Positions 5,180-61,856 of a stretch of DNA of 64,000 bases are shown one piece after another (the stretch's first letter is position 1; the number at the start of each line of letters is the position of its first letter). Origin of the DNA: Cafeteria roenbergensis (Eukaryota; Sar; Bigyra; Bicosoecida; Cafeteriaceae); contig VLTN01000002.1 of NCBI GenBank assembly GCA_008330645.1, positions 744,001 to 808,000 of the forward strand, in the 5' to 3' direction. The position numbers were made by a program, and so were the translations under genes. Below the pieces are notes generated by a model. It ran no database searches. It was not told the origin of the DNA and worked only from the letters and a program-made list of their open reading frames with translations.

Positions 5180-5379
5180 CCCGCGCAGCGGTGCATGGTG
5201 TCAGCAATCAGAATCGGCCGTGTGTGTGCACGTTGTGGCGAGGCTGCACAGGCGCCCGCGGCGCCAGAATCGCCCCCGCGAATTCGACGGCAGCGGGCGT
5301 CCCTGGCAGAGGCGGCGGGTCACGCGCTCCCGAACTGCACGCGCGAGCCAGCCCCCCGGCGCCACTCTTTGATTCTGCG

Positions 5380-6928
5380 ATGGCCGCCGCTTCCGCCGCC
5401 ACCCCGGAGCCGATTGTATATGGGCAGTACACTGTGCCCCACTTCTCAGAGATGGTCAACTTCTCTGTCGGCCAGGTGAGCTTGCGGCGCGCGGCGCCCC
5501 GGCGGACGTGCAAAAACCCGGTTTGCCGCGTGCCACGCTTCGCTGGCGTCGACAGCGAGCCCCTGCTGCTTTGGGTCCTGCACCCCTCCCCCGCAGCCCG
5601 CCTCGACCATGCTGCCCCTGGACAAGATCCGCCAGGCCGCGGCCAAGAAGTTCGCGGAGACGGACGTGACCTTTTTGCAGTACGGAGTTGTGTCCGGCTA
5701 CGAGGTGTTCCGCAAGTCCCTCGCCGCGTTTCTGGCCAAGCACTACAAGCGCGGTGAGGTGCCGCCCGTGCTAGGCATTCCCGCGCGGGCGAAGCGCGGC
5801 CGGTGCGGCGCAGGGGCGCGAGTGGGGCGAGGGGCGGGAACTGTCGCCATGACGGGTCTCTAGTCTGACCCGGTTGAAGCCCGCACCCTGCGCTCACCCC
5901 AGCCGCTCGCCTGTCGCGCCCCGGTGCCCGCAGACGTGGATCCGGAGCGGCTGTTCGCCACCAACGGCGTGACGGGCGGCCTGACCCTCTTGTGCTCGCT
6001 CTTCACGACTGCGGGCGACTCGGTGGTTGTCGAGGCGCCTAGCTACTTCCTCGCACTCAACATCTTCAAGGAGCTGGGGCTCAAGGTCAAGGAGGTGGGC
6101 ATTGACGAGGAGGGCATGGATGTCGACGCCCTCGAGGCCCTGTGCAAGGCCGGGGAGGCGCCTCGCGTCGTGTACACGGTTCCCACGTTCCACAACCCCA
6201 CTGGCTACACCATGTCCCCCGCTCGGCGCGAGAAGCTCGTGGCGCTCGCCGAGGAGTACGGCTTCGTGGTGTTTGCCGACGAGGTCTACCAGCTCCTGGG
6301 CTTCGCCGACACCCCCGAGCCGCCCCCGTCGCTCTGCACGTACGACAAGTCGGAGAAGGGCTGCGTCGTCTCGCTGGGCTCCTTCTCCAAGATCCTCGCT
6401 CCCGCGCTTCGCATGGGCTGGTACGAGGCCCACCCCGCCCTCCTCGCCCGCGTGGCCGAGAGCGGCCAGCTCGATTCCTCGGGCGGCATCAACCCGGTCA
6501 TTTCCGGCATCGTGCAGGTTGCGCTGGACGACGGGCTGCAGGAGGAGCACCTCAAGGCCGTCAAGGCGGAGCTCGGGGCCCGCGCGAAGAAGCTCTCGTC
6601 GGAGCTGGAGAAGCAGCTCCCTGAGGGGTGCTCCTTCGCCCCCATCGGGGGAGGATACTTCGTCTGGATCAAGCTCCCGGAGGGGGTGGAGGGCGCCCCG
6701 CTCCTGGCGCACGCTGCCCACAGCCACAAGGTTCGGTTCCTGCCCGGCACCAAGTTCGGCGGGCCGCAGCTGAGCGGCCGCATCCGCCTCAGCATCTCCT
6801 TTTACCCTCCCGAGGGCATCGAGGTGGGCGTGGCGCGCCTGGCAGAGGCGATCCGAACCTTTGTCGCCAACGGGTGCAAGCCCGTCGCGGGAGACGAGGC
6901 CCTCAAGGCGGCGGCAGGGACTCGCTGA
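5380..6928 (+). CDS. PLP-dependent class I/II aminotransferase
   Basis: Three exons, 5380-5475, 5597-5753 and 5934-6928, join in frame to 415 residues. Both introns are GTGAG..CAG. The product is a fold-type I aminotransferase of the 2-aminoadipate/aromatic (LysN/ARO8-like) branch. Evidence in order: PLPLDKIRQAA-type N-terminal arm; ATNGVTGGLTLLCSL; the HNPTGYT motif at about residue 170; FADEVYQLLGF; the PLP-binding lysine in SLGSFSKILAPALRMGW at about 237; and a C-terminal RIRLSISFYPPEGIEVGVARL. The family transfers amino groups between amino acids and 2-oxo acids using PLP; the substrate cannot be fixed by eye. No targeting peptide is obvious, so it is probably cytosolic. The following gene is tail-to-tail with 347 bp between. 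Confidence 0.9.
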
Positions 6929-42271: not shown

Positions 42272-43903
42272 ATGGAGTGCTGCATCGACGAGTACTTCTC
42301 CCCGAGCTACCGCGTTGCCCGGGGGCGGTTTTTGGACGCAGCCGCCGCAGCGGGGTTTGAGCTGGAATCGCTGTGCTTGCCCGAAAAAATGTGAGTCCCT
42401 GCCGCGTCCACGACGCCGCCCGCCGGGGGCGGGGACAGCTCGGGCAGCCAGCCTGGCGCGGCGCGCAGCTTCCCCTTCAATGGCCGAGGGTGTCCCGCGC
42501 CAGAGCCTCTGCAGGGACAGCTGCACGAGGCGGAGAAGCGTCGGGGCCGCAGGGCGGCCCGCGCGGCCCAGCGTCGCTGGCTGCGCTGGCCTTGCCTGGA
42601 CGCGTTCCCGCGTTGCGTTTACGCCACTGCATCGACGCTGCGCGCGTGTTGCGACCGCAGGGGCCCCGACGGCGAGCCTCTGTTCATCGACATTGCGTTT
42701 TCTCGCGGGTCGGCGCTCCGGCCCGGCGAGAGTCCGGACGCGCTGTTCCTGCATTCCTCGGGGACGCATGGCGTGGAGGGCTACATCGGCTCGGCGATTC
42801 AGCTCAGTTTGCTCGCGCAGGCCGCCTCGGGGTCCCGCCCCGAGCTTTGCCCGCCCGCGAGGGGGATGACCGTGTTCATTCACGCGGTCAACCCGTTCGG
42901 CTTCGCGTGGAACCGCCGCTTCACTGCCAGCAACTGCGACCTCAACCGGAACTGGCTGGTCCCTGCCAGGTTCGTGGAGCTGGCCAAGCAGGGCGTCCCG
43001 GCCCTCTTCGAGCGGTTTCGCGGCCTGATCGCGCCGGACTACGTGCCCGACCCGGATTCGTGGTCCGAGTGGCTTTACGTCCGCGCCAGCGCCGGGATCG
43101 CCATCGCGCAGTGCGGGCTGGACGCCCTCAAGGAGGCGGTGGCGGCGGGGCACCACAGCGACCCCGAGGCTATGTACTTTGGCGGCGCGGAGCTGTGCGA
43201 GGAGCCGCGCCTCATCGTCGCCGCCCTGCGCCGCATCGGGGCGCTGCAGGAGGTCGCGGCGGACGCCCCCGGGGAACCAGCCGAGGGCGAGGCCGTGTGG
43301 CAGCCGTGGGGCGCGTCCGACGCCGGCGGCCTGTTTGAGGGCGTGCGTGGCCCGGCCCGCCTCGTCAGCGTCGACGTCCACTCGGGCCTCGGGGAGGCCG
43401 GCCAGTCGTCCCTCCTCCTCAGCGGAACAGAGGGCGGGGAGGAGGCGGCGACGATTCGCCGCGCTCTCGGCCTGGCTGCCCACGACGCGGCGGCCGGACC
43501 CAAGTCCGCATGCGTGCAGGACGCATCGGCTCTCGGATCGGCGGGGGTCGCGTACACCACCCGCGGTGGCTTCTCCGAGGCGCTGGCATCCGTGCCCGGC
43601 CCCGCCGGCCTGCCCGTGGGCGCGGAGCCCTCTCCCGCCGCCTACTCAGGCGTCCGCCCCGCTGACCGGGTGTGCATCGCGCAGGAGTTCGGCACCGTTC
43701 CGACCACGGACGTGTTCTTCGCCCTGCGCGCCGAGAACGCGCTCTACCAGAGCGATGAAACCGCTCCGCCATCGCACCCCCTCCGGCAGCAGCTCCGGGC
43801 GGCGTTCTTCCCCGATGACGCCGCGTGGCGCCGCGAGTGCTTGGCGCAGGGCGTGACGGTGGCTGTGGGTCTGGCCGCTCATGCCTTCGCCGGGCGCGAC
43901 TGA
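42272..43903 (+). CDS. DUF2817 (M14-peptidase-like) protein
   Basis: Two exons, 42272-42390 and 42661-43903 (phase 2 junction), give 453 residues. The start MECCIDEYFSPSYRVARGRF is followed by IDIAFSRGS and HSSGTHGVEGYIGSAIQLSL, then HAVNPFGFAWNRRFTASNCD and LNRNWL. These are the DUF2817 hallmarks: an HGVEG-type metal-binding start and a NPFGF-(x)-R-N-NVDLNRN block that mirrors the Zn carboxypeptidase (M14) active site. SVDVHSGLGEAG and EFGTVPTTDVFFAL complete it. A zinc-dependent hydrolase, perhaps acting on peptides or amides, is expected, but members are poorly characterised. No signal peptide is seen, so it is probably cytosolic. Family call is confident; substrate is unknown. Confidence 0.88.
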
Positions 43904-44196: not shown

Positions 44197-45309
44197 TCAG
44201 GCGGCAGAGGGCTTCGCTCCGCCCGCGGCCAGCCTGTGCAGCGCGATCGCCACGAGCAGACGGGAGCTGCCGAGCAGTCGCTCGTAGGCAGCGAACATCA
44301 CGGCGGCGTTGAGAACCGTCTGGAGAAGCTTGGGCCCCATGCCGCGGAACAGCGCTGGGGCGCCGCCCTCGGCCACCAGGGCGCTCAGAGCCTCCCACGC
44401 GCCGGCAGGGCGGCGCGGGCGCGGGTCCGCTGGCGTCTGAGCGTCGGCCACTGCCTCTGCTGAAGCAGCCGCAGCCGATGCCGCGTCGCGCTTCGCGTCC
44501 GGGGAACCCGCCGAAACCGGCGCAGCGGCTGCACGGTCGACACCGGCCTGCATTCTCGTCTGAACAACCTGCAACGGGAACGTGACCACCGTCGCGACGG
44601 CCTTGGCAAGGGCCCCGGCGGCAAAGCCCTCCACCGCGGACAGCCCTCGGCCGGACTTGCCGGTCAGCGCAGCCCGCAGGCGCTCGTACGCCAGGAACTG
44701 AATGGCCGGGTTGGCGCAGAGCACGAGGGACACAGGCAGCGAGCGGAACAGGCCTCCCACGCCCTCGTCCGCCACGACGGAGGCCATTGCGGACAGCAGC
44801 GTGGGCTCCTCGGGCGGGTCCTTGGCCTCGCCCGCGGCCCCGCCAGCGCCGTGCGACGCCTTCCACAGCTGAACGCGCTTCGCCGCGGTCCACAGCGGCG
44901 AGGTCACGGTGGCGTTGACCGCGCCCGCAGCGTAGGCCACAGCCAGCGTCTCCAGGGCTGACGGCGACCGAGGCTTGCCGCCGCCAGAGTTCCGAAAGCG
45001 CTCCGCCGCGCCCTTGAAGCTCTCGTACGTGAAGAAGTAAATTGCCTGCGACACGGCGAGCGTGCCCATGGTTGCACCTATGCCGCGGTAGAGGCCCTGC
45101 AGCGCCCCAGACACGCCTTGCTCCTCCACAAGCTTGGCGACCATATCCAGGGGAGACGAGGGGCTGCTCTCGTCGTCTGCGGCCCGCGTCTGCATGGCGG
45201 ATCGAATGGTGTCGAGCGGGTAAAGCAGCAGCATTGCCATGCACGATCCGGACATTCCGGCGAGCGCATGGGCAAGAGCCTCCTCCGCTCCGCCGCCGGC
45301 TGCAGACAT
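44197..45309 (-). CDS. Mitochondrial carrier family protein (peroxisomal PMP34-like)
   Basis: A single exon encodes 370 residues from the ATG at 45309. The frame is open further upstream, but that part is Arg/Thr-rich and unlike a carrier. Three tandem carrier repeats are visible: LAHALAGMSGSCMAMLLLYP with LDTIRSAMQTR; YAAGAVNATVTSPLWTAAKR with GLFRSLP; and FAAGALAKAVATVVTFPLQV with VQTRMQ and ALFRGMGPKLLQTVL. The PLDT-x-R and PLQ-x-x-QTRM motifs and GAx-KAVAT resemble SLC25A17/PMP34 and plant PXN, which carry CoA, NAD and adenine nucleotides across the peroxisome membrane. Repeat 2 has PLW instead of P-x-D/E, as in that subfamily. An Ala-rich loop interrupts repeat 3. Substrate is inferred from similarity only. 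Confidence 0.87.
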   Translation of the reverse strand: MSAAGGGAEEALAHALAGMSGSCMAMLLLYPLDTIRSAMQTRAADDESSPSSPLDMVAKLVEEQGVSGALQGLYRGIGATMGTLAVSQAIYFFTYESFKGAAERFRNSGGGKPRSPSALETLAVAYAAGAVNATVTSPLWTAAKRVQLWKASHGAGGAAGEAKDPPEEPTLLSAMASVVADEGVGGLFRSLPVSLVLCANPAIQFLAYERLRAALTGKSGRGLSAVEGFAAGALAKAVATVVTFPLQVVQTRMQAGVDRAAAAPVSAGSPDAKRDAASAAAASAEAVADAQTPADPRPRRPAGAWEALSALVAEGGAPALFRGMGPKLLQTVLNAAVMFAAYERLLGSSRLLVAIALHRLAAGGAKPSAA

Positions 45310-45572
45310 TCGGCTCGCCCCTCGCTCGGCGGGAGTGCGGATCCGCGAGGCGCGGACGCCAGAGGGAGCAGCGGCAAGCGGTGCGCGAGCGGCCGCGTTT
45401 TGCTCTGCCCCGCGACGGGTTGGCGACTGCCCGGAGCCATTCGTGTGTGTGCGCGCGCTGCCAATAAGAACGCGCCCGATCGCAAAGAGAAACGCGCGCA
45501 TTCGGAGCTGTCACATTGCACAGTGAGCCACCCAGCCACTCAGCAGGGCGCCGCGGCGGCGGTTGTCGCCTC
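45310..45572. other. Intergenic between carrier and IML1
   Basis: 263 bp between two minus-strand genes (promoter of the carrier, 3' end of IML1). No feature identified. Confidence 0.4.
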
Positions 45573-48515
45573 CTAGATGGAGGCGAGACACGACTCCAAG
45601 ATGCCGTCCACCGTCTCGACTGCAACCGACAGGCCAGCCGCAAAGTCCACCATCTGCAGCGCACGCTGGCCAGCCGGTGGCAGGCCGGCGGACTCCCCGT
45701 GCCCCCAGAGGCTGCGCGCCTTGCACGGGGCCACCACCGCGCCGCTGGCGTCTGCGCGCAGCAGCAGCTCCCCTGCGGAGAGCGAGGCCTCCTGGAACGC
45801 AGATTGCTTGGACGGCTGGCCGCCCTTGCCAGGAGCAGCACCGCTGGCTGCGCCGCTGGCTGCACCGCTGGCTGCACCGCTGGCTGCACCGCTGGCTGCG
45901 CCGCTGGCTGCAGCACTGGCTGCAGCACTGGCTGCGGCACTGGCTGCAGCACTGGCTGCGGCACTGGCTGCAGCACTGGCTGCGGCAGTGGCAGCGCCGC
46001 TGCCAGACTCGGCAACCAACGACGCGCGGAAGCCCCGCGCGTCGAGGCACGGGACCGCGCTGCGGCCGGCCGCCGAGCCCCCCGGCACCACCAGCGTCGC
46101 CGCTCGGCCCACGGCCGCCGAGTCCAGGCGGGGGGGAAAGAGTGGCGCCGCCGCCTGCAGGTATTGCCGCGACCACCCGCCCCCGCAGCTGGACAGGATG
46201 CTCGGGTGCCGCGAGAGCGCGTGCGACGCCTCCGCGGCCGCCGCCGCCTCGGCGCGAAGCTGGAGCTCAGCTGCAGCGCGCGACGACCCCGCACAAGCGC
46301 CCCTCATCGGCGCTGCGAGAGCGGCATCGCCCGTCTCTGCCGCCGCCGCCGCCGCCGCCCCCTCGGCGGGAGCCGGGGTCGCGCCAGCCGCAGCTGCCGC
46401 CCCCCTGGCTGTCCCGGCCAGCTCCGATACTCCCGCAAGCTCGGCCAGCTTGCCCGCTAGGGGACGGGTCCCGGGCAGGATGACGTCGCCGGCCATTCCG
46501 AAGCGCGACGTCGCCGCGTCCTCGAGCAGCCGCAGCGCCGGGCCGGCTCTGCCCGTGGCGGTGTCCAGCCACCACCGCGGGCTCAGGCACGCGCCGGAGA
46601 GCGGGAGCCGCACCGCCGATGCAAAGGGCGGCAGGGTCGTTGCGTCGCCGGCCCGGGCAGCAACCGCGCCGAGGGCGTGGTGGAGGCGGCTAGCGCCCGC
46701 CAGAAGGCGCGCGACGGACAGAAGAGCGTGCCTGCGGCGAAGGGCGTCCCCAGGGAGGGGGTCAAGCGCTGGGGGCCGCGGCGCTGCCGAGGGCCACCCC
46801 GGCGCGTGGCCCGGCGGGGCGGCCGTTCCCGGCCCCGCGGAGGGCCTGAGCATCGCGATGCGATCGCACTCCACCGCCACCGGCAGAGCTGGCATGCGAG
46901 CCAGGGCGAGCAGGCGGACCGTGGCGAAGCCCTCCCTTGTGGCCCGCCGGTCCAGGGCGGCTGCCAAGTCACGCACGCTGTCCGCCCACGCCGTGACCCA
47001 TCGGAGGCTCAGCACGAAGGCGATGCGACCGTCCATCACGTGCGGCACCGTGACCTGCGCCCAGCCGTCCCGGTGCAGCGGGGCCTCCACCCGCACCCGC
47101 ACGTCGCTGCCGCTCGGGTGGGGCAGCGGCGCAACGGACGTGGCCGCGCGGGAGGAGCGGAGCGACTTTGCGGCGAGCCCGGCCACAGCCTTGGCCAGCT
47201 GGTCCAGCGACGACCGGGGCGACAGGCCGGGCTCTGCCGCTCCGGCAGGCGCGGCCGCGGTCGCACAGCTCTCGACAGAGAAGCCGGTGGGGCCGCTCGC
47301 CACCGCCTGGAGAGCAGAGGCCGCCTGGGGAACCGACGCCGACGCCCAGCCCCACGCCCCGTCGAAGCCGCTCCGGCTCGCGTCCGGAGTCTGCTCGTCC
47401 TGCGCGCTCGAGGACACCATGGTGACCCGCAGGAGATCGGCTCTGTCCATGAGGGCGTCGCTCACGGGGCGGAGAGCCTTGGCCATTCGGTTGGCCTCGG
47501 CGCGGACGCGCTGGCGGATGGAGCTGGTGGTGGCCGCAGCCGCCGCGCCGGCGCCCGAGGCTGCGCCGGCGGAGCCCGCTGGCGCGGCACCGCCATCCGC
47601 CGGCCCGACGGCGGCGGCAGGGCGCCCCGCGGTGGAGGCCGCCGACGCAGAGCTGTCCCTCTCCGTCTCACTGCGTGGAGGCCCGGTGAGCACCCCGAGC
47701 TGTGCCGATGCCACTGTGGCGGCACGGCGCATGAGGGAAGCCGCTGTGGACCGCGCACCAGCCGCGGGCGCCGGGGCGGGCTCGCCGGAACCAGAACCCG
47801 CCGGCGGGAGGCCCGCCGGCGACGACGAGCCGTCGTGCAGCGCCGCAAGCTGCTGCTCGTAGGCGGCGGCCGACCAGCAGGGCGACTCGCGCGCCAGGCT
47901 GGGCACCGGGAAGCCGCGCCGGCCCCACCACGAGATGCCGACGTCCAGCGGCACCCACACCGGCGGCACGGTGGCCTGAGCTGGCGCCTGCTGCAGCCCC
48001 GGCCCCGAGGCGTCAGCCGTGGACCCCTCCGCACCAGGGGCAGCCGCCGCGGGGTCCGAGTGGGCCGAGCCTTGGGAGCGCTCCCTGCCCTGCATGGACA
48101 TGGACGAGCGAGCTGGGCCGTGCGATGGCGGGCGTGTGGCGTCCGAGCCGCGGCGAGAGTGGCCGGCGCTGGCAGCGCCGTCGGTCGACGGCGCTGCTGC
48201 TCCGCCGCGCTGCGCTGGGAGCATGCCAGCCCCGGCGATAGTCGCGAAGCGCCGGAGGCTGCCAGCGGGCCCTGGCGAGCCGGGGCGGGAGTCCGCCGGG
48301 ACGGCATCGCCTGCCGGCCGGAGGAGATCGCCAGCCTTGCGCCGCCGCGCCACGCCGCCCGCTCCGGCCGAGGGCTGCGCACGGGGCGGAGCAGAGGCGT
48401 CATACTTGCTGCCGTCCGACGCTGCCCGCGCGAGGTGCCTGTCTCCGCCGGCTCCGGCTCCCCCGCTGACGCTGGGCGGCGCGTCCACGCCGGGCGGGCA
48501 GGCGACGGTCGTTGC

Positions 48516-48549
<34 letters not shown>

Positions 48550-50850
48550 GTTTTGGCGGCCGTGCCTGCTGCCCCCGTGCCGCCAGAGCCGACGCTGGTG
48601 CTGGCGCTGTCCCCGGAAGTGTCAGGCCTCGCCAGAGGCGCAGAGGAGCTCCGACCCATCGGTGCGCTGCTGCCACCGTTGGCTGCGCGGCGCCACGCTG
48701 CTGCCTCAGCATGTTCGCCATCCGCAAACGACGACGGCGGCGACGACAACGGCGACCCGGACGGCAGCGTCGCGCCCTGCCGGCCGGCAGTGAGGGGGAT
48801 CGGGGTTCCCCGAGCCGAGCCGGCTGGCGCCCCGGCAGAGGTGCGGCGCAAGTGCGACGGAGGCTCGTCGATGGACCCGAGCGCGGCGCCACAGGAGGAG
48901 GAGCTCGAGTGCGAGGCGGAGGACACCTGGTGGGAGAGCTCGCCGGCCCCAGTCGGCCCGCCGAATGCCTCGGGAGGGTGCATCGCCGAGGCTGCGGGGC
49001 GCTCCCCGCCCTGGCCAGCAGGGGGCACAGCGGCGTCACCCTGGGGGTCCCTGGCGCTGCTGCCCGAGCTCGACTCGGCGGAGGACAGCGCCCGCCGATT
49101 GGCAGCAGCGCTCGAGGACGCGCCGATCACGTTGAGGCTGGCCGTGGACCCGTGGGCGGGTCGCACGCGCTGGACAAAGCCGCGGGCCGCCGCGCTGTGC
49201 GGCCGCTCGACCTCGGCCGTCAGGTCAAACCCGCGCTGCAAGGCGTGCTCCCCGCCAGCGCCGAGTAGCGCGGACGAGACGTCGTCCACGAGGCTGCCGA
49301 GGCTCCCGCTTCTGCCACTTGAGGACTGCCCGCTGCCTCTGGTCCGCCTGCGGAACGGCCGGGCCGCGCTGCCGAGGGGCAAGGCGAAGGTATGGCCGCC
49401 CTCCGACCGCGGGTCCCCGCGCTGCGGGAGTAGAGCCAGGAAGAGGCTGTTGGAGTCCACGCTCTCGCCAAGGCCCTCGTCGTTTCCCGAAACAAGGCGG
49501 TCGAGCAAGTTCCAGCTCACGCCAGGCGTGGCCAACATCTCGCTTCCGAGGGCGCCAGCGCCCGCCCCGCCCGCGACGCCTCCAGCCCCGGCAGCGCCCC
49601 CACCGACGCCCGGGGCCGCGTCCCGCCACCCGAAGCGGCGCAGGCCAGGCAGCCTCAGATCGCAGCCCGCCTCGGCAAGCGTGAACCAGAACGAGCCCGC
49701 AACGGCGGGTCGCGGGCGCCCAGCTGGCCCCGAGCCAAGCGAGTCGCCTCCCACAGCTGTCGACCCCGGCGGCGTAGCAGCCAGCCTGGCGACAGAGTTG
49801 GCCGTGTGGCTGTCGGGCTGCTCCAGCGGACCGTCGAGCGAAGCCGCAGCAGCTGCTGCAGCGGCAGCTGCCGCAGCCGCGGCTGCAGCCGCCGCCGCCG
49901 CTCGGGCCGCCCCGCTCGAGTCGCGCGAGTGGCGGGAGCCCTGAGTTGGCCGAACCACCGACACGGTCGAGCCAATGCGGCCGGTGACTGAGAGCGGCAC
50001 GAGCGCGCGCAGCGCCGGGGAGCCGTCAGCCGCCCCGCCTGCCACGCCGCTCCGCGATGGCACAAGGGCCCGCCCCTCCGTTTTGACGTCGAGCGGCAGC
50101 CCCGCGTCCAAGCCACTCCTCGCTCCCGGGCCTCCTGGCGGGGCTTGGTGGTGAAGCGCAGTCGCTCCCGACGACGGAGCAGCGAGGGAGGTGGACCTGA
50201 GGGAGGCCGAGCTTGCGCCGCGCGTGTGGCTGTTGCGGGGGGTCCTGCCGCCCTGGAGCTGACTGGCGCCGCCGCTTCCGGCGCCGACCACAAGGGCGTC
50301 CGACCCAGGCTGCCTGGCAGAGGCAGCAAGCGCAGCTAGCGCCAGGCCGTCGTGCGCCTCGGAGCGGAACAACACGTACTGGCGCACGTTCATCTTGCGC
50401 TCCGTCGGCTCGTACTCCAGGCAGTGGACGACGGACTCTGCGGTCATCCAAACGCGAAGCACGCTGGCAGAACCGCGGGCTGCGCCGGCGGGTTCAGCTT
50501 GGCGCCCAGGCGCAGGAAGCCCGAGGCGGCTGGCGAGCGTGGCCAAGGTGGCGGACGTGGGCACGGACGCGAGAGTCAGGCTCGCCGCCCCGGTGGAAGC
50601 GCGAGGCGTGACGGGGGTCAGCGTGCCGGACGGGACTTTGTCCATGTGCCCTGCCGACACGGTCTCCAGCCTGAAGGGCACCACCTTCGCTGCGCGGGCC
50701 GGCAGCGCACGGCCCGCTTGCTCTGCAGGCCTGGCGACTCTCACCGCCGACCCGGGGCCTGCCAGTGTGGCAGCGAAAGTCTCCATCTCTCGCTGGGAGG
50801 CAGAGGAGGAGGCGCCAGGCACGAACACGCGGTCATCGTCGCCCTCGTCG

Positions 50851-50887
<37 letters not shown>

Positions 50888-53800
50888 GTTGCTCCGCACT
50901 CGTGTTGGCGCTGCCACGGCCCGCCCCTTGCTTCGAGCCCCGCTGCCCGCCCGCGCGCTGCTGGTGTCTGTGCAGCCTGGCCAGACGGCCTGTTGAGGCG
51001 GTCGCCGCTGCCGTGGCATGACGGCCGTGCTCCCCGAGGGAGCTGTGGCTCCGCTGTATCATGCCACTGCTCACCATCGCAGCAGCGCCCTGGGCAACGC
51101 GCCTGGCAAGCTCCCTGCTCCGGCTGCTGCTCGGCGCCGGAATCCCGCTCGCAATGTCGCCCGGCTCTCCAATGCCCCGCCCGACCGACGTGGACGCCCG
51201 CCCGCGGGCGGACCCGCCGGCGATTCGCGGCCCAGCGGGCGCGCCTCCGCCTCCTGGCCGAGCCTGCGGTGGCACGACGATCTGGAAGGACCTGTTCAGG
51301 CGCTCCGCGATGAGGTCCTCCACCACTGACATGAACGAGCCTCCAGCGGGACCCCGGTCTGGCACAGGGATGGGCTCGTCCGAGATCTCAAAGTTGGCGT
51401 TGAGGTCGGGCGCGGAGGACATGACGTCGGTGGTGAGCGGGAGGGACGCGGGCTCTGTGAGAGACGTCCAGTGGGGCCGCGTGGGGGCCAGCGGGGACGC
51501 CACCGCCACCGCCCCGACGCCTGCCGCCCCGTACAGGGTGCTTGCGGTCACGAGCGCCGTGCTGAGCCTGGAGTTGCGACCGGGGTCCGCCCTTGCCGCC
51601 GAGGCGCCCAGCCCGAAGGGGTCGACGGGCGGGAGGAAACCTGCCTTGCCAAGCAGGCTCGAGTCCGACTCTTCGCCGGTGCCCAGAAGCGATTCGGCCA
51701 GGGGGCGCGCCCCCGAGAACAGGTGGCTCCACCGGCGGCGGTTGGCCGTCAGCATCCAGTCGAGATCCATCCGGCGGCGGAACGGGTTGAACCCCGGGGC
51801 CAGGCGCGCAATGTCGCGCTGCACTCGAGAGGCGGCGCTCGTGTGCTCGGTGGCGCCCACGGAGCCGGCCGGGGGAGCAGCATGCCCAGCGGGTCCCGGA
51901 GCACCGCTCTCGCCCATGCTGCGCAGCGCCGAAGCGCTGCCAGCAAAGCTTGGGCCGGAGCCGCCGGCTCGCGCGCCTCCCAGCTTGGGGGTGCCCATTG
52001 CCGCAAGTGCCGCGCCGCCCCTGCGTCGCGGCGGAACCTGGACAGGCGTCATCGAAGGCGATCGCAAGGGCAGGCCCGACGTCGGGCCGCGGGCCTGCGG
52101 TTGCGTGGGCGTGGGCGCGGCGCCGACGCGATGCTCGTGAGCGCCGCCGGCAGCGGGTGCAGCGCCGCTCCTGGTGCGAGCGGCGTTGCCACTCGCCGGG
52201 CCGCTCGACCCGGCAGAGCTGGCGCGGCGAGACGAGGCCGCGCTCAGAGGCAGGGCGATGGCCGACAGCAGCGCCTTGCCGGCGCCGGTGGCTGCGTCAG
52301 AACGCGGAGAGGGCGGCGTCGCGCACGCCCCCGGCTGCGGAACAACGCCGAACGCCGCTTCAGCGCGAGGAAGAGTGCCGCCAACAGAGCCAGGGGCGGC
52401 ACTGGTGGCGCGGGAGGCGTGCCCGCCCTTGCCGCCAGTTGCGCGCCTCGAGACCCCAATCGCAGAGTCGGCCTGCGCGACAGCACCAGCGCCGATGGCT
52501 GGGGGGCCGCTGACCTGCCTCGACACGCCGGGGGGCGAATCCTGCCGCGACGGGCTGTGCCGACCGGAGGCTGCCCCGGCCGTTCCGCGGCCCAATAGCT
52601 CCGTTACCCGTGGCGAGCGAGCGGAGCGCGATGTTGCCTCCTCAGTCCCTCCGCCTCCGCACCTGCGCCCGCTGCTTTGAACGCTCCTCGGAGAGGCCGG
52701 CGCGGCGCCAGGGTGGGCTGCCTGAAGCGGCGAGACCTCAGGGCCCACCACGGCAACAGGTGCCTCAGTGGCTCCCGTGGGACTATGGCCAAGAGGCACT
52801 GCCTGTTGGGGCGGCCCAGCTGCAGCCGGCACGCGCTCCCCCGGTGCGGCGTGGGGCGGGCACTGCCCGGTCCTGGGCGACGAGGCCGACATCACAAGCG
52901 CCTGTCCAGCGCTTCCAGACCTCCCGTGCGAGGGCTCGGGTGACGAGACGTGCGCCTCGTGCTGAGACCGCGGCTTGCCGCCTCCCTTCCCAGGGCCAAC
53001 GGGCCTTGGAGGCGTGCTCGAGCGGCGGCGCCCCGAGACGCGACGGTCCAGGCTGCCGCCAGCGGAGGGGGCGCCACCGACGACGGGAGGCGCACCGGCG
53101 CCGCCAGCGCGGCCCGGTCGGCCGCTTCGCTCGCTGTCGCGGCTGTTGCTGCTGTCGTCTCCAGAGCTCTCCGAATCTGTGAACGCTTCCGCCTCCGCTG
53201 GCGCAGGCGCCTGAGACGGAACCGACGCCCTCCCAGCTCGGGACGGAAGGCCAAGCGACGTGCTCGAGGCCCCGCCCGGCTGCTTTGCGAGCCCGGAGTG
53301 CTGCCCATGCTGGCCGAGGGGAACCGCGCCAACGAGTGGCTCCGCGCGTCCAGCGCCCCCCTCGCGTGATTCGCCGCGGCGGGGGCGGCCCCCGCCAACA
53401 TGGCTGACTGGCGGCATTGCTGCGGCTTCCGGGCTACCCGGGCTGGCGGGCATTGGCTCAGCAACCTGGGCAGGCGGCAGGCGCGAGCCCTCGGCTCCCA
53501 CGGACTTGGGGGCGCCGCCTTTGCCGCCCGGGGCGAAAGCCAACCTGCTCTGCGAGTCGCTGGGCAGCGGCTGCGCGGGTGGCACCTTGCTCGCTGGAGC
53601 GTCGCTTCCAGGCGGAGGAGGCGTGCCCGGCCTCATCGCCACGGCCGCCTCCTGAAGCGACTGCGCGCCCGAGCGCCTTGATCCAGCCATGGACTCGGTC
53701 GTCGGCGCCGTCGTGTCCGCTTCCCCGGCCGCGGGAGGCCTCCCGTCACTCTTGGCAGTGCCTGTAGCCCCAGGGAGCCCGATACCCTCGCCCTCCCCGT

Positions 53801-56800
53801 GCCGAAAGCTGAGCATTCCAGTGCGCCGCGGCAAGCCCAGGCCGTGCGAGCTGGCAGCCGACCCGACCAGCTGCGCCTGGCCTGCGCCCAGAACTGCGAG
53901 GCTGCTCACGCGCCTAGGTCTTTTGGTGGACCTCGGGTGGTTGCCGGCAGCCCGGACCGCACCCCCTGCCCAGTGCGCGAACCTGTTGCCGCGCCCTGGC
54001 TCCGCCGACCCCGGACCGCTCCAGTCCTCGTCCGTCTCGTTCACCACATCAAGCACGCGAACGGCGTGGCCGGTGGCAGCCGCCGCATGGGCGAGCCCGT
54101 CCGCAGCGCCGGCGGGGGGGTGGGTCCTGGAGTCGGTGGGCGACGCACCGCCGTCGCTTGCCCGGGAAGAAGGAACCTGGGGGGCTGCGAGTGACTCCTT
54201 AGCCGCCGAGGCCTGCCCCTTCCCGGCCACCGCTCGACTCGCCTGCCAATTGCGCACAGATGCGCCTGCGCTGCCTCCGCTCTGCGACCGCTGCCGCCCC
54301 CGCTTGGCAACCGAATTCGAGGGGCCTGCTTGGCTTGGATCCGCCCCGATTGCTGCTGCGCGCCTGCTCTGCAGCTCGGCTTGCGCCCCGCCCGAGAGGG
54401 CTGCCCCGAGGCTCAGGTCCGTCACCGCCCGCAGAAGCGGCGACACGTGGTCCCCGCGCCGCCTGCGCGTCGAGGGCCCGCCCCAGGAGGAGGTGGAGCT
54501 TGAGAGCATTGCGGCTTCTGGCGGCGGGCGCAGAACCCTCGCACCGGGCGAGCCTCTCGCAGCGTCTCCGCCGGCGGAAACGCCGGGCGCCACGGGGGGA
54601 GCGGAGACCAGCGAAGCGGCTCCTCCACTCGCGCCGAACACGCCGCCCGCGCCGCCTCCTCCTGCCCCCACACCCGTCGCGTCGTTGGGGCCTATGGAGG
54701 GCGATGCTGCCCCGCCGAAGAGGCTGGGCGCGCGCTGGGGCGAAGGCCAGGGCCCCGGCCCGCTCCTGGGCTGTTTGACCCCGTCAAGCAGCGTGCCCAG
54801 AAGTGGCATCCCGCCGCCGTCTGTGCCGCTCTGCAAATGGGCCATTCGCGTGCCTGCCGGGAGCTGCAACGGCGCCGGGATCGCAACGTGACTCGACATG
54901 GCGGGAGCCCCGAGTGTGAGCGCGTCCCCTTCCGGCAGAGGAGTCCACGAACTCTCGGCGCCTACGCCTCCGTCGCGAGCCGCTGGGCCGCTCGCCTTGA
55001 GCAGCGAGCCCGGTGTTGCTGCCGCCAGCCGCGAGCTTCCCCAGTCGTCGAGGGATACCATGCTGAAGCTGGGGGAGTCGGGGCACCGCGCGTCGTCTGC
55101 GAGCGCGACGTGGGCGTCCTGCAGCGGGGCTGCCCAAGACCCCGCCCCCCCCAGCGGGCCGCTCGGCACGCTGCTCTGGGCTGCAGAGGCCGTCTGTCTG
55201 CCAGCGCGGCTGGCTGCAGCACCAGCTGAAGGCCCTCGCGGCCAAGCGCCGGCGGCGGCGCTCCGGCCCCAGAGCAGGGGCAGGCGCCGGGCAGCCTTCT
55301 GCTGCGGGGGGTGCGCCGGCGAGGCCGTTGCCGCGACTCGCACCGAGCACACGGACACTGCCGAGACCGTGTTGGCCCGCACCATTGGCCTTCGCGGCGC
55401 GAAGACCGGGTCCGGCAGCGGCGGCCCACCCGAGGCGATGGCTTGCTTTGCCTTGACGCCCTGCTGGTTCCAGGCGAGGGACTCGTCGATGTGCGGCAGC
55501 ATCCCCAGGCGAGAGCCGGCGTCGCGGGCCAGCGTGGCGTGCGCGTGGGACACCGCGGACTCGATGGCATTGTCGTGGAGGCGAAGCTCGTCCAGCAGCC
55601 CCTGCGAGGGTTGCGGCACGGAGGACCGTGGCACGCGCGTGACCCGGTCGGTGGCCGACACTGGCGCCGGACACGCCCACGTGGGGAGCGGCAGGGCAAG
55701 CCCGAAGCCGCTTGGGGAGCCGTCCTGGGTGCCCCCTGTGGAGAGGAACACTGGCAGCCCGAGCGCCGCTGCTGCTCTCGAGCTCAGCACCGCAGTTCCT
55801 GGCTCCAGAGCTCTCTCCTCGAACGCGCCGCTGAGCGTGTCCTGGCTCCCCAAGCAGGGCACACTGCCGTAGCGAATCCAAGGAAGGCCGAACTCAAACT
55901 TGGGCCCCCACGAGTGAGTCGAGGCCAGCCCAAGGCGCGTTTGGCCCAGCAGCAGGCGGATCGCCACCACGGAAGACGCCGCAGCGGACGGGTGGGCAGC
56001 AGCGCCAGCGGCCAGCGAGGAGCGCGAGGCAGACTGCCTGAACGGCCCAGAAAAGACCCGCGGCGGCGCGTCCTTGCTTCCTGGCTGGATGGGCGCTGCG
56101 CGTGGGGACGTCGACGCGCTTCCGCCCGTCGGCTGCGGCGTCGGCCCAGGCGAGGCAGGCGCGAGTCCTCCAGGCCGAGCCGCGCGGGCTGCGAGCCGCG
56201 GCGACCTCCAGACGTCTGGCCCAGTCGCAGCGCCAGACTGAGGAGCCGGCTGAAGCGCGCCCGCGGCGGCCAGGTCCAGCAGGCTGCCCGAGAACCCCCG
56301 CAAGCGGTGCGAGGCCGAGGCCGACATTCGATCCGGGTCAAAAGCCCTGCCGGGCGCGCTGTGCTGCGCGTCCGTCACTCCCCTGATGGCGGGACGCACC
56401 AGCATCAGGGGGCCGTTCCGCGACGACGGGGCAGGGACAAGGAGCAGGGGGGCAGGGGCTGTCGTCCCCTCCAGGCTGCGGCGGCCTGCACGCATCCACG
56501 CCCACCCCTTGCCCGTGGCCGCCAGGTCCGAAACCGACGGGCGGTGGGAGCCCTGTCCTTCGACCGCCGCGTGCCCGCCGCTGCCCGCCACGGGGGGCAT
56601 CAAGGCCTCCACAAGCACCGACCGCGCCCTGCCGTCTCCGCTGACCACCACCATCCGCCTCGAGTCGCCACGGCCGGCGGACCCAGAGGCAAGCCCCCCT
56701 GCGCCGCCCCGCCTGCGAAGGTTCACACTGCTGCTCGAACGCTCGGCGGCGCCCACAAGCCTGGGCGACGATTCCGCGGCCTCTTCCGACGCAGGCGCAC

Positions 56801-59800
56801 GGCCCAGCAGCTCGTCCGAGCCCGCAGCCGACGCGACGGCGCCGCCGCCGCCGCCGCCGACTGGCTGGCCGTAGGAGGGCCTCCGCGGCGAGCGCGACGC
56901 CAGCGCCGGCGAAAGGGGGACGTCGGGTCGGTCCTTGCGCAGCCTGGCCGATGGCCTCGCCTTGACGGCCACGGGCACGGCCGCGATGGCGGCGTTGGGG
57001 AAGGAGGAACTCCTGTGTGACTCCGACAAGCGCGGCCCTGGGTGCTCCGCGACGCCTGCGTCGCCGCCGAGGTGGCGCTTCAGCAGAGACGACCGCCGCG
57101 CCCTGCTGCCGCTGCTCGGAGCTCGCCTGTCGCTGTAGCCATCCTCCACGTCGGCGTCGTCGTCCTCTGCGTCGCCAACGTCGCTGGCAGCAGTACCCGC
57201 GCTGGGAGCCGTCTCCCGGGAAGGCTGCCCGACGGCCCCCTCAAGGAAGCGCCGCTGAGCCCCGCCGGGGCTGGTCGCGTGCGGGGCATCCCCAAGCGCG
57301 GTGGAGGGCACAGGCAGCCCCAGGCCGTGGGTGCTTGCTGCGGTGCCGCCGGCAGGCGGGGCACGGCCGGGCAGTCCTCTCCAGACAGCAGCAGCTGCAT
57401 GGACCCTGTGGCGGGCGGCAGCGTGGTCAGAGTGGAGAGAGGCAAGGGCGCCAGTGGAGAAGTGGGACGAGAGCCCGTGGCGGGAAACCGAGCGACGCGG
57501 CGCCATGCCAAAGAGGCCGGCCGCGCCCCTCCCGGGAACGGACGGCCCGAGACCAGAGGGCTTCACCCCGCTGGCCGTGGCGCCGGGCGCGCGCTTGGAC
57601 GCGCCCACGAGGCCCGTCTCCAGGGCGGAGGTGCCGATGAGGATGGTGCGGCCGGAGGTGGAGCTCCACGGGACCCACACGCCGCGGGCATGAGCGGCGT
57701 GGGGCGGGGCGAGCGCTGCGTCACGCAGCGCAGGGCATCCGCTGGAAGGCAGGAGCAGGCCCCTGGCGAGTGCCCTGCCCATGTCGGCGGCGGCGGCCAA
57801 CGCTTGCTCGCGCGAGGCCGAGCCTGACCGGACGGCTGGCTGGCTAGCAGAGTCGTCCCCGCCCACCAGCGTGCCTGCTGCCGGCGTGCCAGCCTCCTCA
57901 TTGAGCGTGCGCTCGTGCTGCCCGGCCTCCAGCCGCAGGCTGGAGCCCTGGCCGGCCGCTCCAAAGTGACCGCAGGCTCTGGGCACGCCGGCTTCACCTG
58001 ACACGGCGACGCCGGCTGCGGGGTCCAGGCGCTGCTGCGCAAGAGCCGCGGCCTCCTGCTCAGCCTGCTCCTCCATCTCCTGCTCCAGCACCGCCAGGCT
58101 CCACAGGTCCGGGGGCTCCTCCGTGACGACCGGGTGGCGATCGCCCTGCTGCCTCGCCGCGCGCCACAGGTCGCTGGGGCGCACCTCCATGGGAGAGTGC
58201 GTGCTGGGGTTGCCGTCCGAGGGCGAAACGAGCCCTGCGCCCAAGAGCCGGCCCAGCAGGGGCCGGGGCACGATGTGGCCGTCGGTGGTCAGGCGAGGCG
58301 CCGCGATTGCAAAGATGATGCTGGGCGCCGGCGGGTCGATCCAGGAGAGGGTTTGGTGGAGCGGCTGGCTGGCGGCGCCGGCGGGGTCGTCTGAGGCCTG
58401 GTGGGCGCCCGCCGTGCGCCAGTCAAGCAGGTACGCCGACTCGGCCCGGGTAGCCAGCTGGCTCCCGGTGAGGCCGTCGAAGCCCCACTGCCCGAGCGAC
58501 GGCACGGGCTTGGTCGCTGCCAACCAGGCAGGTGGGGCGCTTCGCTTCGAGTGCGAGGAGCGGCTCTGCCGGCCGCCGTGCGCCGAGGCAGAGCGCGCAC
58601 CGCTGTCGGAGCTTGCGTTGCCCGACTGGGACCACTCGTGGTGAGGCAACGAGGCCGGGGAGCCGGCCCTGCCAGCCGCCGAGCCCAGGCTTGCGGCGCC
58701 GCCCGCGGCCGCGGCCATCGGACTCTGCTTCTGCTGGTCGGCGGGCCGCTCGGCGTCGGAGATGGCGCGAACGTCGCCGAGGCCGGCCATCGCCCGCAGC
58801 GCCGGCGCGGCTTGCAGGGCCGCCATGAGCGCCGCCGCCGCCGACTGCCTGCCCCCCTGCCTCCACCAGCCGGCCCACGCGTGCTCCAGGGCCACGTCGG
58901 CCTGCAGCACCAGCGGGCCTGGCGGGCACTTCCTCGGGTCCGAGCCCACCGCGGAGTAGGCCGCGTCATCGTCGTCGTCGGGGCGGTAGAAGGACGCGTG
59001 CAGCCAGTGCGGCATGCGGTACTGGTCGAAGCCAAAGACCACCACTCTCTCGGCCTCCCGCTCCTCGGCGCGCAGACGCCGAGCGGCCTCGTCCTCCTCC
59101 CCTCCGGCGACGGAGGCAGCGGAAGAGGCAGGGAGCCGCCCCGGAGGGGCCGGCGCCGGGGCACCCGAGGGGGGGGGCGGTGCAGCCAGCCCAGCGCGGC
59201 CGCGCAGGTCCGCCGCCTGTCCGTCACGCCCTGACGTGGGGGCGGCCGGCGTGCGGCCAGCGGGCATCTGCGCGTTCCGGGGGGGCTGCTGACTGAAGGG
59301 GCGCCTCAGAGGGCTCGCGGGGGGGCTGGATGGCGCCCTCACGGAGCTCCTGTTGCTGGTGTGGGAGCCAGTGCGGCGGTGCCCGGGGCCGCCGTGCTGT
59401 CGAATCGGCGCTGCCGCGCCTGATGGGCCCTCCTGGGCGCCTCCGTGAGAGTCCGACGAGAGCACAGACGCCTTGGCTGCCTCCGGCGCGAAGACGAAGA
59501 GCGGGACGTTGTGGAGCGGCGGCGCGCCGCAGCAGACGAGGTCGCAGCCAATGCCCGAACTCACCATTCGCTGCTTGGTCAAGCGAGTTAGCGGGGCATC
59601 AACGTGGAAGATGCCCTGGCCGGCGCTCACGACGACGAGGTGCTGCCCGTGCCTGGCCATGTCCCGCGCCCGGTGCGCCCCCGCGAAGAGGTCCAGGCCG
59701 CAGTTGATGGCCTCGAGCAGGGCTCCCTGCGAAGAGAGCGACGGGGTGCACTGCCCCGAGAATGGGTACCGAGGCCGCGAGCCGCCAGCCGCGCGCGACG

Positions 59801-61856
59801 CGGGGGAGCCGGAGCCGGTCGGCGAGCGGTCCCCGCCTGCCTCGCGCTCTGCCCCGGCCCCGGCGGCGGTTCCGGCGCTGGCACCTGCGCTGCCCTCGGC
59901 CTCTGCCCCCGCGAGACTGCTGCTCGCTGCGTGAAACTTTCGCCACGCGTCGGGAACGCCCCACTCCGCAACAGAGGGGAAAGCTCGAAGCGCCAGCCGC
60001 AGTCGCTGCACGAGCGAGCCCCAGCCGCCCTCCGGGGCCACGCCGTCGTGCACCACCATGAAGTGGTCAATTCGCGGCCTGCCGCCCTGCCCAACCACAG
60101 CCGCGGAGGAGCCGTCGAGCAGCCTGTCGTACAGGCCCGCGGCGCTCCACGCGTCGAACGCCTGCGTCGACTGCAGCGCCGCCAGCGCCCTGGTGAGCGC
60201 GGCGGTGCTCCTGGCAGGAGGGCTCGCCCTCCGCGCTGAGCCGCGGCTGGGCGCAGGGCTGGCGCGGTCGCTGGCGCGGTCGCTGGCGCGGTCGCTGGCG
60301 CGGCTGCCTGTGCCGGCGCCGGCGACGCCCGGCGGCGTCAGAGCCTTGGCAAGGTCGCCAGGCCGCGAGACCCCGACATCGGCCCCGGCAGAAGCTGCCA
60401 ATGCGGCCTCTGGCGTCTGCAGCCCGGACGCGTCAGGCGCCTTCTCTGCATCGCGGGGCCCGCCGGTCGGATGCGCCGCCGCGACAGAGCGAGCGCAATC
60501 CTGATCTTGGCGCGGCGATGCCGATCGCGGCTCCCCTCCAGAGCCGGGCGCCGGCCGCGCGACCTGCGAGCGCTCTGACTCCGGCTTTGCAAGCGGCTCG
60601 CGCCCGTCTGCCGTCTCGCCCGCGGTGCCTGCAGCCGTAGAAGCAGCGGATCCCTCCACGGCGGACGCCACGTCAGTCTCTGAGTCGATGGCTGCTTCGA
60701 GAGCGGCAGCCGGGCTAGCTGCCCAGCCGCCCCCAGCTGCGGCGTCGGCCGGCGCCGCTGCCAGCTCCACTGCAGCCGCCGTGGCCTCCGCCGGGGTAAC
60801 GACCTCGGACACCCCCTTGCCCGCCGCCGAGGCCGCCGTCTCAAGCGCCGCAACGGCGCCTCGAGCGAGCAGGTCCGGGTCGGCAAGCCACACCGAGGTG
60901 CCGTCCAGACCACGCCACGCAGACCGCAGTCGCTCTGAGGCCAGCTCACGGAGCTCCGCCACCGCCTCCACCACCGCCGGGTCGACGTCGAGGTGGGATC
61001 GCGAGAAAATGCACAGGGTCAGCCTGTGGTCGCAGTTGAGCCGCGACCAGCGCCGGAGCAACGACTGCACGAACGACACCATGGCCTCCACGCGGACCCT
61101 CCCGTCCGCGCCCACGTCCCAGGCGTCGCTGGAAGCCTGGAACATGACGACCACGTGCGCGCTCCTGCTGCGCAGCGCCACGCGGGTGGCAGAGCCCACG
61201 AGGCCGCTGCGCACGCGGGAGCCCTCGGCGCTGTGGAGCGCCTTGATGGTGAGCCGCGTGCCGCCCACCGTCACCATCTCGCCCTCGTGGAGGCACATTC
61301 CAGCCATGGCGCGCGTCAGCCGCCAGACCTCGCCGTTTGGCATGTGCGTACCCTTGCAGCTGGCCTCCACCAGGCCCAGCGACGCGGACTGCTCGGACAC
61401 TGCCCAAATCGCCAGGCGCTGCCGCGCGGAGATATGGAGCAGGTCTGCGCTGCGCGTCGCGATGGACAGCGCAGCGCGGCCTCGGAGCGTGGCCAGGCGC
61501 CCGACCTTTAGCACCACGCGCGATCTGCGACGCAGTGCTTCCAGGGACTGGGCCGCCTGCTCGGCAAAGGCATCGGCATGCGCATGGCCGCTGCGGCCCT
61601 GCTGTCCCGCGACTGGAGCCAACGCGGGGTCGCAGCCGCACAGCAGGTCGCCGACGCGCACGGACGCCAGCTTTGCCGGGTCCACAACCGTCTCCACCGC
61701 GTGAGCCTCTGCGCCATGCGTGGCCACCTCAATCACGACGGGCTCCAGAGACCTGACCTCTCCAACTGCGGCGCTGGCGCTGTCTGCCGCGGCCGAAGCG
61801 GCAGCCTGCGATTTCTTGCCCCCTGCTTTGGTGATGCGCATCATTTTGCGCATCAT
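45573..61856 (-). CDS. DEPDC5: Giant DEPDC5/IML1 GATOR1 subunit, single exon
   Basis: One uninterrupted 16.3 kb frame, ATG at 61856 to TAG at 45573, encodes 5427 residues. Conserved DEPDC5/IML1 blocks occur in order but far apart: VVLKVGRLATLRGRAALSIA (about 115-135) and VVVMFQASSDAWDVGADGRV with FVQSLLRRWSRLNCDHRLTL (230-280); LLEAINCGLDLFAGAHRARD and LTKQRMVSSGIGCDLVCCG (700-770); MPHWLHASFYR; MLTANRRRWSHLF (about 3370); SLTEPASLPLTTDVM; LIAERLNRSFQIVVPP (about 3525); ESVVHCLEYEPTERKMNVRQ (about 3800); GVSWNLLDRL; and a C-terminal block AFVLSLRWVTAWADSVRDLA (about 4960). The DEP domain could not be found by eye. Inserts are Ser/Ala/Gly/Pro-rich and disordered. In GATOR1, IML1 restrains Rag GTPases and TORC1 during amino-acid starvation at the lysosome/vacuole. 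Human DEPDC5 is about 1600 residues. Confidence 0.88.
45838..45994 (-). repeat. 12-bp in-frame repeat near IML1 C-terminus (Ala/Ser/Gly)
   Basis: About twelve copies of a 12-bp unit (plus strand gctggctgcacc and variants) encode Ala-Ala-Ser-Gly/Ala blocks in the IML1 frame. Third-base variants alternate between sub-arrays, suggesting stepwise expansion. Confidence 0.9.
48511..48549 (-). repeat. CAG/GCA triplet run encoding poly-Ala in IML1
   Basis: About 12 contiguous gca triplets on the plus strand read as Ala codons in the minus-strand IML1 frame. Another Ala run lies at about 49835-49905. Confidence 0.85.
50839..50888 (-). repeat. GTC/GAC triplet run encoding poly-Asp in IML1
   Basis: A tcgtcg-type run on the plus strand reads as about twelve consecutive Asp codons (GAC/GAT) in IML1, giving a strongly acidic block. 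Confidence 0.85.
60258..60303 (-). repeat. 12-bp in-frame repeat in IML1 (ASDR)
   Basis: Nearly four copies of ggcgcggtcgct encode Ala-Ser-Asp-Arg in tandem within the IML1 N-terminal linker. Confidence 0.85.

Follow-up and report, generated by a model that had tools for sequence, protein, structure and literature searches.

A 5427-residue IML1/DEPDC5 open reading frame in Cafeteria roenbergensis, probably enlarged by linker inserts

A protein of the IML1/DEPDC5 family is encoded on the minus strand of a Cafeteria roenbergensis contig by a single open reading frame of 5427 codons. We consider it very likely (a probability of roughly 85%) that the gene is a conventional Iml1/DEPDC5 orthologue, greatly lengthened by linker inserts as part of a genome-wide habit, with a DEP domain that has been lost or has diverged. 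Its size would derive from Ala/Gly/Ser-rich segments, probably disordered, that were inserted into the linkers between domains or expanded there, as well as inside the domains. The genome is intron-poor and has about 70% GC, and such insertion appears to be habitual in it, being seen in other large proteins and thus not specific to the gene. The frame lies within a 64-kb window, the whole stretch of DNA that was analysed, in which an Rfam scan and a tRNA scan were both empty. Published primers bear out the source as Cafeteria roenbergensis/burkhardae, a marine bicosoecid flagellate: a 22-base TBP primer has one exact match in the genome and its reversed control none, a second primer is exact, and a third differs by one mismatch at the same locus. 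An algal origin was rejected on these primer matches; the search for a Rubisco large subunit was also empty, as it would be too if a plastid contig were missing.

The family assignment rests on profile and structure-database searches. The Iml1 N-terminal domain (Pfam PF12257) is matched with E=2.1e-49 and 168.6 bits, against a curated cut-off of 26.2, and all six PDB matches to residues 1-3700 at E<=0.01 are DEPDC5/Iml1 chains. These results confirm the IML1 identity proposed by an earlier sequence-only reading, which had left it to an HMM search to decide. Every matched block is colinear with DEPDC5/Iml1 (Table 1), the first two being strong and the others weak, and the proposal that the conserved blocks are kept in order is borne out by comparison with the human and yeast structures, with the same weakness in the later blocks. 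The labels N-terminal domain, SABA and SHEEN/SHEN follow what we take to be the domain limits of the human protein, and the human counterpart of the PHWLHASFY island is presumably PHWINHSFY. The SHEEN block of about 80 residues scores 10.9-12.5 bits against human and 9.9 against yeast, which is not significant alone, and it gave no DEPDC5/Iml1 match when the PDB was searched with residues 2701-5427; at E<=0.1 that search returned no DEPDC5/Iml1 chains at all and only two acidic low-complexity matches. Likewise, no GATOR1 chain was matched by residues 4100-5427 at E<=10. The C-terminal trace of PF19418 scores 15-19.2 bits, short of the cut-off of 27 (E of 0.019, 0.0103 and 0.0026 in different searches). 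This sub-threshold trace lacks a PDB match, and no other locus of the genome matches the profile at E<=1. A single-sequence AlphaFold model of residues 4600-5427 (mean pLDDT 40.1) was too poor for a fold search.

Table 1. Positions in the window of the IML1 frame, its conserved blocks and its downstream neighbour
Feature	Position	Strand	Residues	Basis or remark
Complete IML1/DEPDC5 open reading frame	45573..61856	-	5427 aa + stop	ORF list, Pfam, codon-statistics frame test
N-terminal domain and first part of SABA	60981..61472	-	129-292	Pfam IML1 profile positions 1-136
Second part of SABA	59475..59744	-	705-794	Pfam IML1 profile positions 200-286
PHWLHASFY island	58947..59081	-	926-970	Resembles human DEPDC5 block by eye only
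Giant insert/linker	51813..58946	-	971-3348	A/G/S/P/R/T-rich except island 1964-2018
NPF...LTANRRRWSHLF block	51714..51791	-	3356-3381	Colinear with human DEPDC5 598-622; alone not significant
WTSLTEPASLPLTTD block, start of Rag-binding SHEEN/SHEN region	51237..51476	-	3461-3540	Colinear with human and yeast; weak alone
Island, perhaps later SHEEN part	50331..50477	-	3794-3842	Assigned by eye
SWNLLD island, perhaps SHEEN end	49422..49535	-	4108-4145	Assigned by eye
Expected DEP position	47949..49421	-	4146-4636	No DEP match, no domain-like island
DEPDC5_CTD trace	46905..47162	-	4899-4984	PF19418 positions 48-133; below Pfam cut-off
C-terminal island, perhaps CTD end	45576..45710	-	5383-5427	Assigned by eye
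Mitochondrial carrier, downstream neighbour outside IML1 gene	44197..45501	-		One frame; 71 bp past IML1 stop

The single open frame of 16.3 kb that had been noticed in the letters withstood several examinations. Read from 61856 to 45573, it comprises 5427 codons from its ATG and 5440 from stop to stop, and the remaining five frames across the same stretch carry 27-67 stops apiece (mean 45.6). A chance open frame arising from high GC was ruled out by simulation: when 290 kb were generated five times with an order-1 Markov model, the longest stop-free runs were 611-777 codons and no run reached 900 or more. When a codon model was trained on nine other frames, it gave the ORF frame the top rank among all six in 49 of the 54 windows (100 codons each); the five exceptions all went to one antisense frame and none to a same-strand shift, such that the ORF frame outscored both same-strand shifts in every window. 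A purely synonymous codon test preferred it in only 25 of 36 windows, and in the codon tests the scores were lowest within parts of the inserts. The frame has coding character in most windows, and it would be translated as one chain of 5427 residues.

An open frame is no proof of intron absence here, because in the neighbouring proteasome alpha gene (32.46-31.2 kb), where three introns were read by eye, one frame remains open across all of them. Much of the Ala/Gly/Ser-rich sequence could accordingly represent introns that stay open at 73% GC, with a mature protein nearer 1500-2500 residues, and the low coding scores in parts of the inserts fit such hidden introns; the intron-free status is a reading of the sequence itself. 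From four introns read by eye we derived the splice signal GTGAGY...NCGCAG. Donor-like GTGAGY motifs are at chance in the IML1 frame (7, versus 7.9 +/- 2.7 in 200 synonymous shuffles), as are GTGAGY...NCGCAG pairs in any phase (11 versus 10.9 +/- 5.2). In-frame pairs exceed the shuffle expectation (8 versus 3.95 +/- 2.35), which leaves room for short in-frame introns. However, two of the seven GTGAGY sites fall in the matched SABA block (residues 743 and 765) and another (4113) in an island assigned by eye, and treating all in-frame candidates outside those blocks as introns removes only about 213 residues. Hexamers enriched outside long frames yielded no clean splice consensus, because composition differs. 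Against hidden introns also stand residues 801-3340, which hold no stop in the ORF frame versus a mean of 21.4 in the other five, together with the failure of simulated DNA to stay open beyond 777 codons and the unanimous preference over same-strand shifts. We regard hidden introns on this scale as quite unlikely. Of the earlier description of the gene as intron-free, the uninterrupted frame stands, while the open frame cannot by itself serve as proof. The accompanying statement, that in most neighbours introns follow one another at intervals of a few hundred bases, holds only in part: the proteasome gene agrees with it, but the mitochondrial carrier has all three of its Pfam stretches in one frame, and the published genome average is 1.67-1.89 introns per gene (PMC6972860).

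That low average also bears on the earlier suggestion of re-copying from mRNA, by which a spliced transcript would have given rise to a gene stripped of introns; the contrast between an apparently intron-free IML1 and the intron-bearing proteasome gene might point that way. Such an origin is unnecessary in a genome with a mean of fewer than two introns per gene (PMC6972860), and the genome yielded no second IML1. Genome-wide searches covered 36,303,456 bp on 167 contigs, and the IML1 profile search gave two matches, both inside the frame described here, with no second gene, intron-bearing or otherwise. Unrelated long frames are uninterrupted too, and re-copying would leave the inserts unexplained; we consider it highly improbable.

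The inserts themselves account for most of the protein. Only about 15% of it lies in domain-like islands, the remainder being mostly rich in Ala, Gly, Ser, Pro, Arg and Thr. Windows rich in these residues hold 72% of IML1, compared with 39-61% of seven other long frames, 36% of the mitochondrial carrier and 17% of an ABC transporter. The Ser/Ala/Gly-rich inserts first seen between the blocks are real, with a giant one at residues 971-3348, and they are probably disordered. In-frame microsatellites exist, as had been remarked, yet tandem arrays total just 417 bases, or 2.6% of the frame. At the DNA level, residues 800-3340 matched only themselves in a genome search that skipped simple repeats and very common words, and a repeat- or transposon-derived insert was ruled out by this result together with the small share of tandem arrays.

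Comparable frames occur elsewhere in the genome. Our sample of 290 kb (0.8% of the genome, not random) contains one longer frame, of 6948 codons, encoding a SPRY+HECT ligase, and four further frames of 1964-3162 codons. Raptor_N sits in a frame of 5083 codons, at a locus of which 3.4 kb was read, and the frames of NPRL2 (1116 codons) and NPRL3 (1217) are two to three times the human length; frame lengths were counted stop to stop and therefore overstate the proteins. The UCH, EF-hand and PDZ frames and the HECT ligase are unrelated to IML1, yet they share its style of composition and length. Of the explanations offered in the sequence-only reading, these results support a lineage extremely tolerant of insertions, as other large proteins lie in long, Ala/Gly/Ser-rich, uninterrupted frames. 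They do not support a new TORC1 regulator architecture peculiar to IML1, since unrelated frames are similarly inflated, although the DEP domain was not found. Searches on protist Iml1/DEPDC5 insertions, on protein length and low complexity in protists and on Cafeteria introns and low complexity turned up no title on giant proteins of this genome.

The DEP domain (PF00610) gave no match at E<=1 in the full 5427-residue protein and none at E<=10 in residues 4100-4700, and the IML1 frame contains none of the six genomic locations that match it at E<=1. These Pfam searches of protein, piece and genome uphold the earlier remark that no DEP domain is recognizable. We assume that the PF00610 model detects the DEP domain of human DEPDC5. 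A single-sequence AlphaFold model of residues 4100-4700 was too poor for a fold search (mean pLDDT 38.1), and within 4146-4636 this low-confidence model has just two short helices, at 4186-4209. Because there is no DEP match, we class the gene as a member of the IML1 family without a recognizable DEP domain, not as a DEP-bearing DEPDC5. As judged by profile matching, the domain is lost, or has diverged past recognition.

The GATOR1 partners NPRL2 and NPRL3 are both encoded in the genome, as are a zinc ribbon of the GATOR2 type and Rag-family GTPases (best matches E of 1.6e-44 and 5.6e-40; the family also scores in two of 14 control genomes). The NPRL2 frame carries an arginine that aligns to human Arg78 (YPRNAL versus YSRNAL; about 3 bits, in the correct order within the frame), which is the catalytic arginine of GATOR1 according to PMC7464330. 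By analogy with other eukaryotes, a GATOR1 complex would form in Cafeteria, in which the SABA region would hold the NPRL2-NPRL3 pair, the SHEEN region would touch RagA and NPRL2 would supply the GAP arginine; when nutrients are short, this complex would turn off RagA and thereby TORC1. Long frames encode several proteins of the TORC1 branch but not the two best Rag matches. This pattern, with the missing DEP match, might reflect functional remodelling, in which Raptor, Iml1, NPRL2 and NPRL3 had their inserts selected together to serve as tethers, condensate formers or platforms for phosphorylation that replace DEP-linked GATOR1 contacts. However, a pathway-specific cause is not needed, because unrelated large proteins (the HECT ligase, UCH, EF-hand and PDZ frames) look alike in composition and length, and we think such remodelling unlikely. 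There is correspondingly only a small chance that the bicosoecid TORC1 scaffolds (Raptor, Iml1, NPRL2 and NPRL3) are now giant, mostly disordered proteins with functional inserts, and that GATOR1 there works without DEP.

With a conventional orthologue lengthened by linker inserts as the preferred reading, the IML1 gene itself is the expected one, and an ancient signalling protein apparently accommodates about 3,800 residues in excess of its human counterpart, nearly all of low complexity. Giant frames without interruption can occur several times over in a protist genome that is rich in GC and poor in introns, and gene predictors trained elsewhere may cut such frames up. For TORC1 biology, the gene amounts to a natural experiment on whether GATOR1 can do without its DEP domain.

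Among known systems, human DEPDC5 (GATOR1; PDB 6ces, 7t3b, 8fw5) has IML1 N-terminal and SABA blocks that follow one another as in the Cafeteria protein, and shares with it, as weak matches also in order, the NPF/NRRRW and WTSLT/LTTD blocks and the CTD trace. Its partners NPRL2, NPRL3 and Rag are likewise encoded in the Cafeteria genome. The human protein has 1603 residues whereas the Cafeteria protein has 5427; the two strong blocks are separated by 68 residues in human and 412 in Cafeteria, and the second strong block and the NPF block by 210 and 2561, respectively. Human DEPDC5 carries a DEP domain, unlike the Cafeteria protein, in which none is recognizable. Yeast Iml1 (SEACIT; PDB 8adl) resembles it in the N-terminal block and, weakly, in a WTSLTEPA-type block; at 1584 residues, it is exceeded 3.4 times in length. 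Within Cafeteria, the HECT ligase (6948 codons) and Raptor (5083) are similarly uninterrupted, with conserved domains beside Ala/Gly/Ser-rich sequence; their families are unrelated to IML1, and what the three have in common is style, not ancestry.

The minus-strand frame runs for 5440 codons from stop to stop and encodes 5427 residues from its first ATG. In five order-1 Markov simulations (290 kb, same composition) the longest open runs were 611-777 codons, and thus a chance open frame was ruled out as its origin. The sequence-only reading had called this frame a giant DEPDC5/IML1 and had proposed a profile search, which confirmed the assignment with a Pfam match to the Iml1 N-terminal domain (E=2.1e-49). 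When residues 1-3700 were compared with PDB sequences, all six matches at E<=0.01 were DEPDC5 or Iml1 chains. These matches are strong for residues 129-292 and 705-794, and weak for residues 3356-3381 (NPF block) and 3461-3540 (putative start of the Rag-binding SHEEN region), which lie in the correct order relative to DEPDC5/Iml1; the last block also aligns weakly to yeast Iml1. No GATOR1 chain in the PDB was matched by residues 2701-5427 (E<=0.1) or 4100-5427 (E<=10). The Pfam model of the DEPDC5 C-terminal domain scored below its cut-off at residues 4899-4984 (E=0.019, 0.0103 and 0.0026 in separate runs), the sole place in the genome for this family at E<=1.

The earlier statement that no DEP domain is recognisable also holds. 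The expected position, residues 4146-4636, has no Pfam DEP match and, under our composition rule, no domain-like island; a poor single-sequence structure model places only two short low-confidence helices there (4186-4209). A genome search for DEP at E<=1 gave six places, three of them over the curated cut-off, and none falls in the IML1 frame. Judged by these comparisons, the predicted product is an unusually long IML1-family member without a recognisable DEP domain.

Features discussed in the text. C numbers are contigs of the genome (G000) and L numbers are locus labels; the window lies on C2.
Feature	Location	Strand	Remarks
IML1 frame	window 61856-45573	minus	
DUF2817 protein	window 42395-43903	plus	E=7e-52; adjoins mitochondrial carrier
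Proteasome alpha subunit	window 32460-31200	minus	three introns
Longest frame in sample	C10:90140-110983 (L033, L026, L034)		terminal HECT, SPRY upstream
Weak DEP match	C4:114706-114870 (L011)		inside 2953-codon open frame
NPRL2 frame	L023, 2909-6256		
NPRL3 frame	L022, 4929-8579		same contig as IML1, ~0.2 Mb away
Raptor_N	C41, around 78286-78735 (L041)	minus	5083-codon open frame

Published data give 70.1% GC for strain BVI and 1.67-1.89 introns per gene among Cafeteria strains (PMC6972860), which a later paper names C. burkhardae (PMC8547959). A 22-base primer for the C. roenbergensis TBP gene (PMC6972860) has one perfect match in this genome, against none for its reversed control; a second published primer also fits exactly at that locus, and a third, based on another strain, has one mismatch there. 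Splice signals (donors GTGAGY, acceptors NCGCAG) were taken from four introns, three in the nearby proteasome gene and one in the TBP gene, which were identified by eye with conserved protein sequence as the guide. A single reading frame runs unbroken across the three proteasome introns; openness alone is therefore little proof over short stretches, and automated gene prediction could readily mistake introns for coding sequence here. By the same token, short introns may be hidden within the IML1 frame, and its in-frame donor-acceptor pairs, 8 against 3.95 +/- 2.35 expected, are a mild point against a single exon. However, GTGAGY sites number 7 against 7.9 +/- 2.7 in 200 synonymous-codon shuffles, and all pairs at 60-400 nt number 11 against 10.9 +/- 5.2. 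Two of the seven donors (residues 743 and 765) lie inside the matched block of SABA, a DEPDC5 domain, and a third (residue 4113) falls in an island placed by visual inspection; treating all in-frame candidates beyond these two regions as introns would remove ~213 residues. Also against such introns, when codon usage was modelled on nine further frames, with IML1 left out, the ORF frame scored best of the six frames in 49 of 54 windows; a single antisense frame won the remaining five, and a same-strand shift won none. A weaker test of synonymous choice alone favours the ORF frame in 25 of 36 windows. We conclude from sequence statistics that, taken together, the inserts are probably coding, although short introns may be present.

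A simple rule based on hydrophobicity and composition, with thresholds that we chose, places 837 of the 5427 residues in domain-like islands, and for 3884 residues the surrounding 41-residue window is at least 60% A/G/S/P/R/T. Because the insert at residues 800-3340 is unique in the genome at the DNA level and the inserts are mostly not tandem repeats, they look like old low-complexity sequence rather than recent mobile elements.

Long frames were sought in 290 kb (0.8% of the genome), comprising the window and its C2 surroundings, the loci of NPRL2 and NPRL3, 10-kb pieces from eight arbitrary sites, and another 20 kb around one of these pieces, added because that piece was open throughout; the sample is thus not random. 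In it 28 frames reach 900 codons or more, antisense shadows among them, and in the simulations none does. IML1 is second to a frame of 6948 codons, and four others have 3162, at least 2944, 2879 and 1964 codons. The frame around the weak DEP match on C4 perhaps encodes another giant protein. An insertion-tolerant lineage, one of the earlier interpretations, is thus favoured by the recurrence of long uninterrupted frames, whereas a special status for IML1 is not, as the same genome has a longer frame. The length of IML1 is not special here; the inflated large proteins of this genome are more remarkable than this gene alone. Re-copying of the gene from mRNA, also suggested previously, is unnecessary, because the search for another IML1 in the genome found none and long frames without interruption occur here repeatedly.

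A survey describes GATOR1 and Rag GTPases across most eukaryotic groups, including stramenopiles, and reports that green algae, land plants and certain parasites have lost them (PMC5745459). Given this spread, the simplest reading is that Cafeteria IML1 would be a standard GATOR1 scaffold whose linkers have grown longer. Frame lengths are given from stop to stop and somewhat overstate the proteins; the frame of a GATOR2-type zinc-ribbon protein has 1894 codons and those of the two best Rag matches 463 and 479. Arg78 of human NPRL2, the catalytic residue according to a review (PMC7464330), aligns weakly with an arginine in the NPRL2 frame. At the Raptor locus, of which 3.4 kb was read, the frame assignment covers Raptor_N only, and the frame passes into A/G/S-rich sequence; towards the end of this locus, the opposite strand carries what by eye looks like an ESCRT-III CHMP/Vps20-type protein. 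Human Raptor has ~1335 residues. In NPRL2 and NPRL3, domain blocks are dispersed in Ala/Gly/Ser-rich frames two to three times the human length (1116 codons against 380 residues, and 1217 against 569). From the second SABA block to the NPF block, human DEPDC5 has 210 residues, whereas Cafeteria IML1 has 2561, its largest gap.
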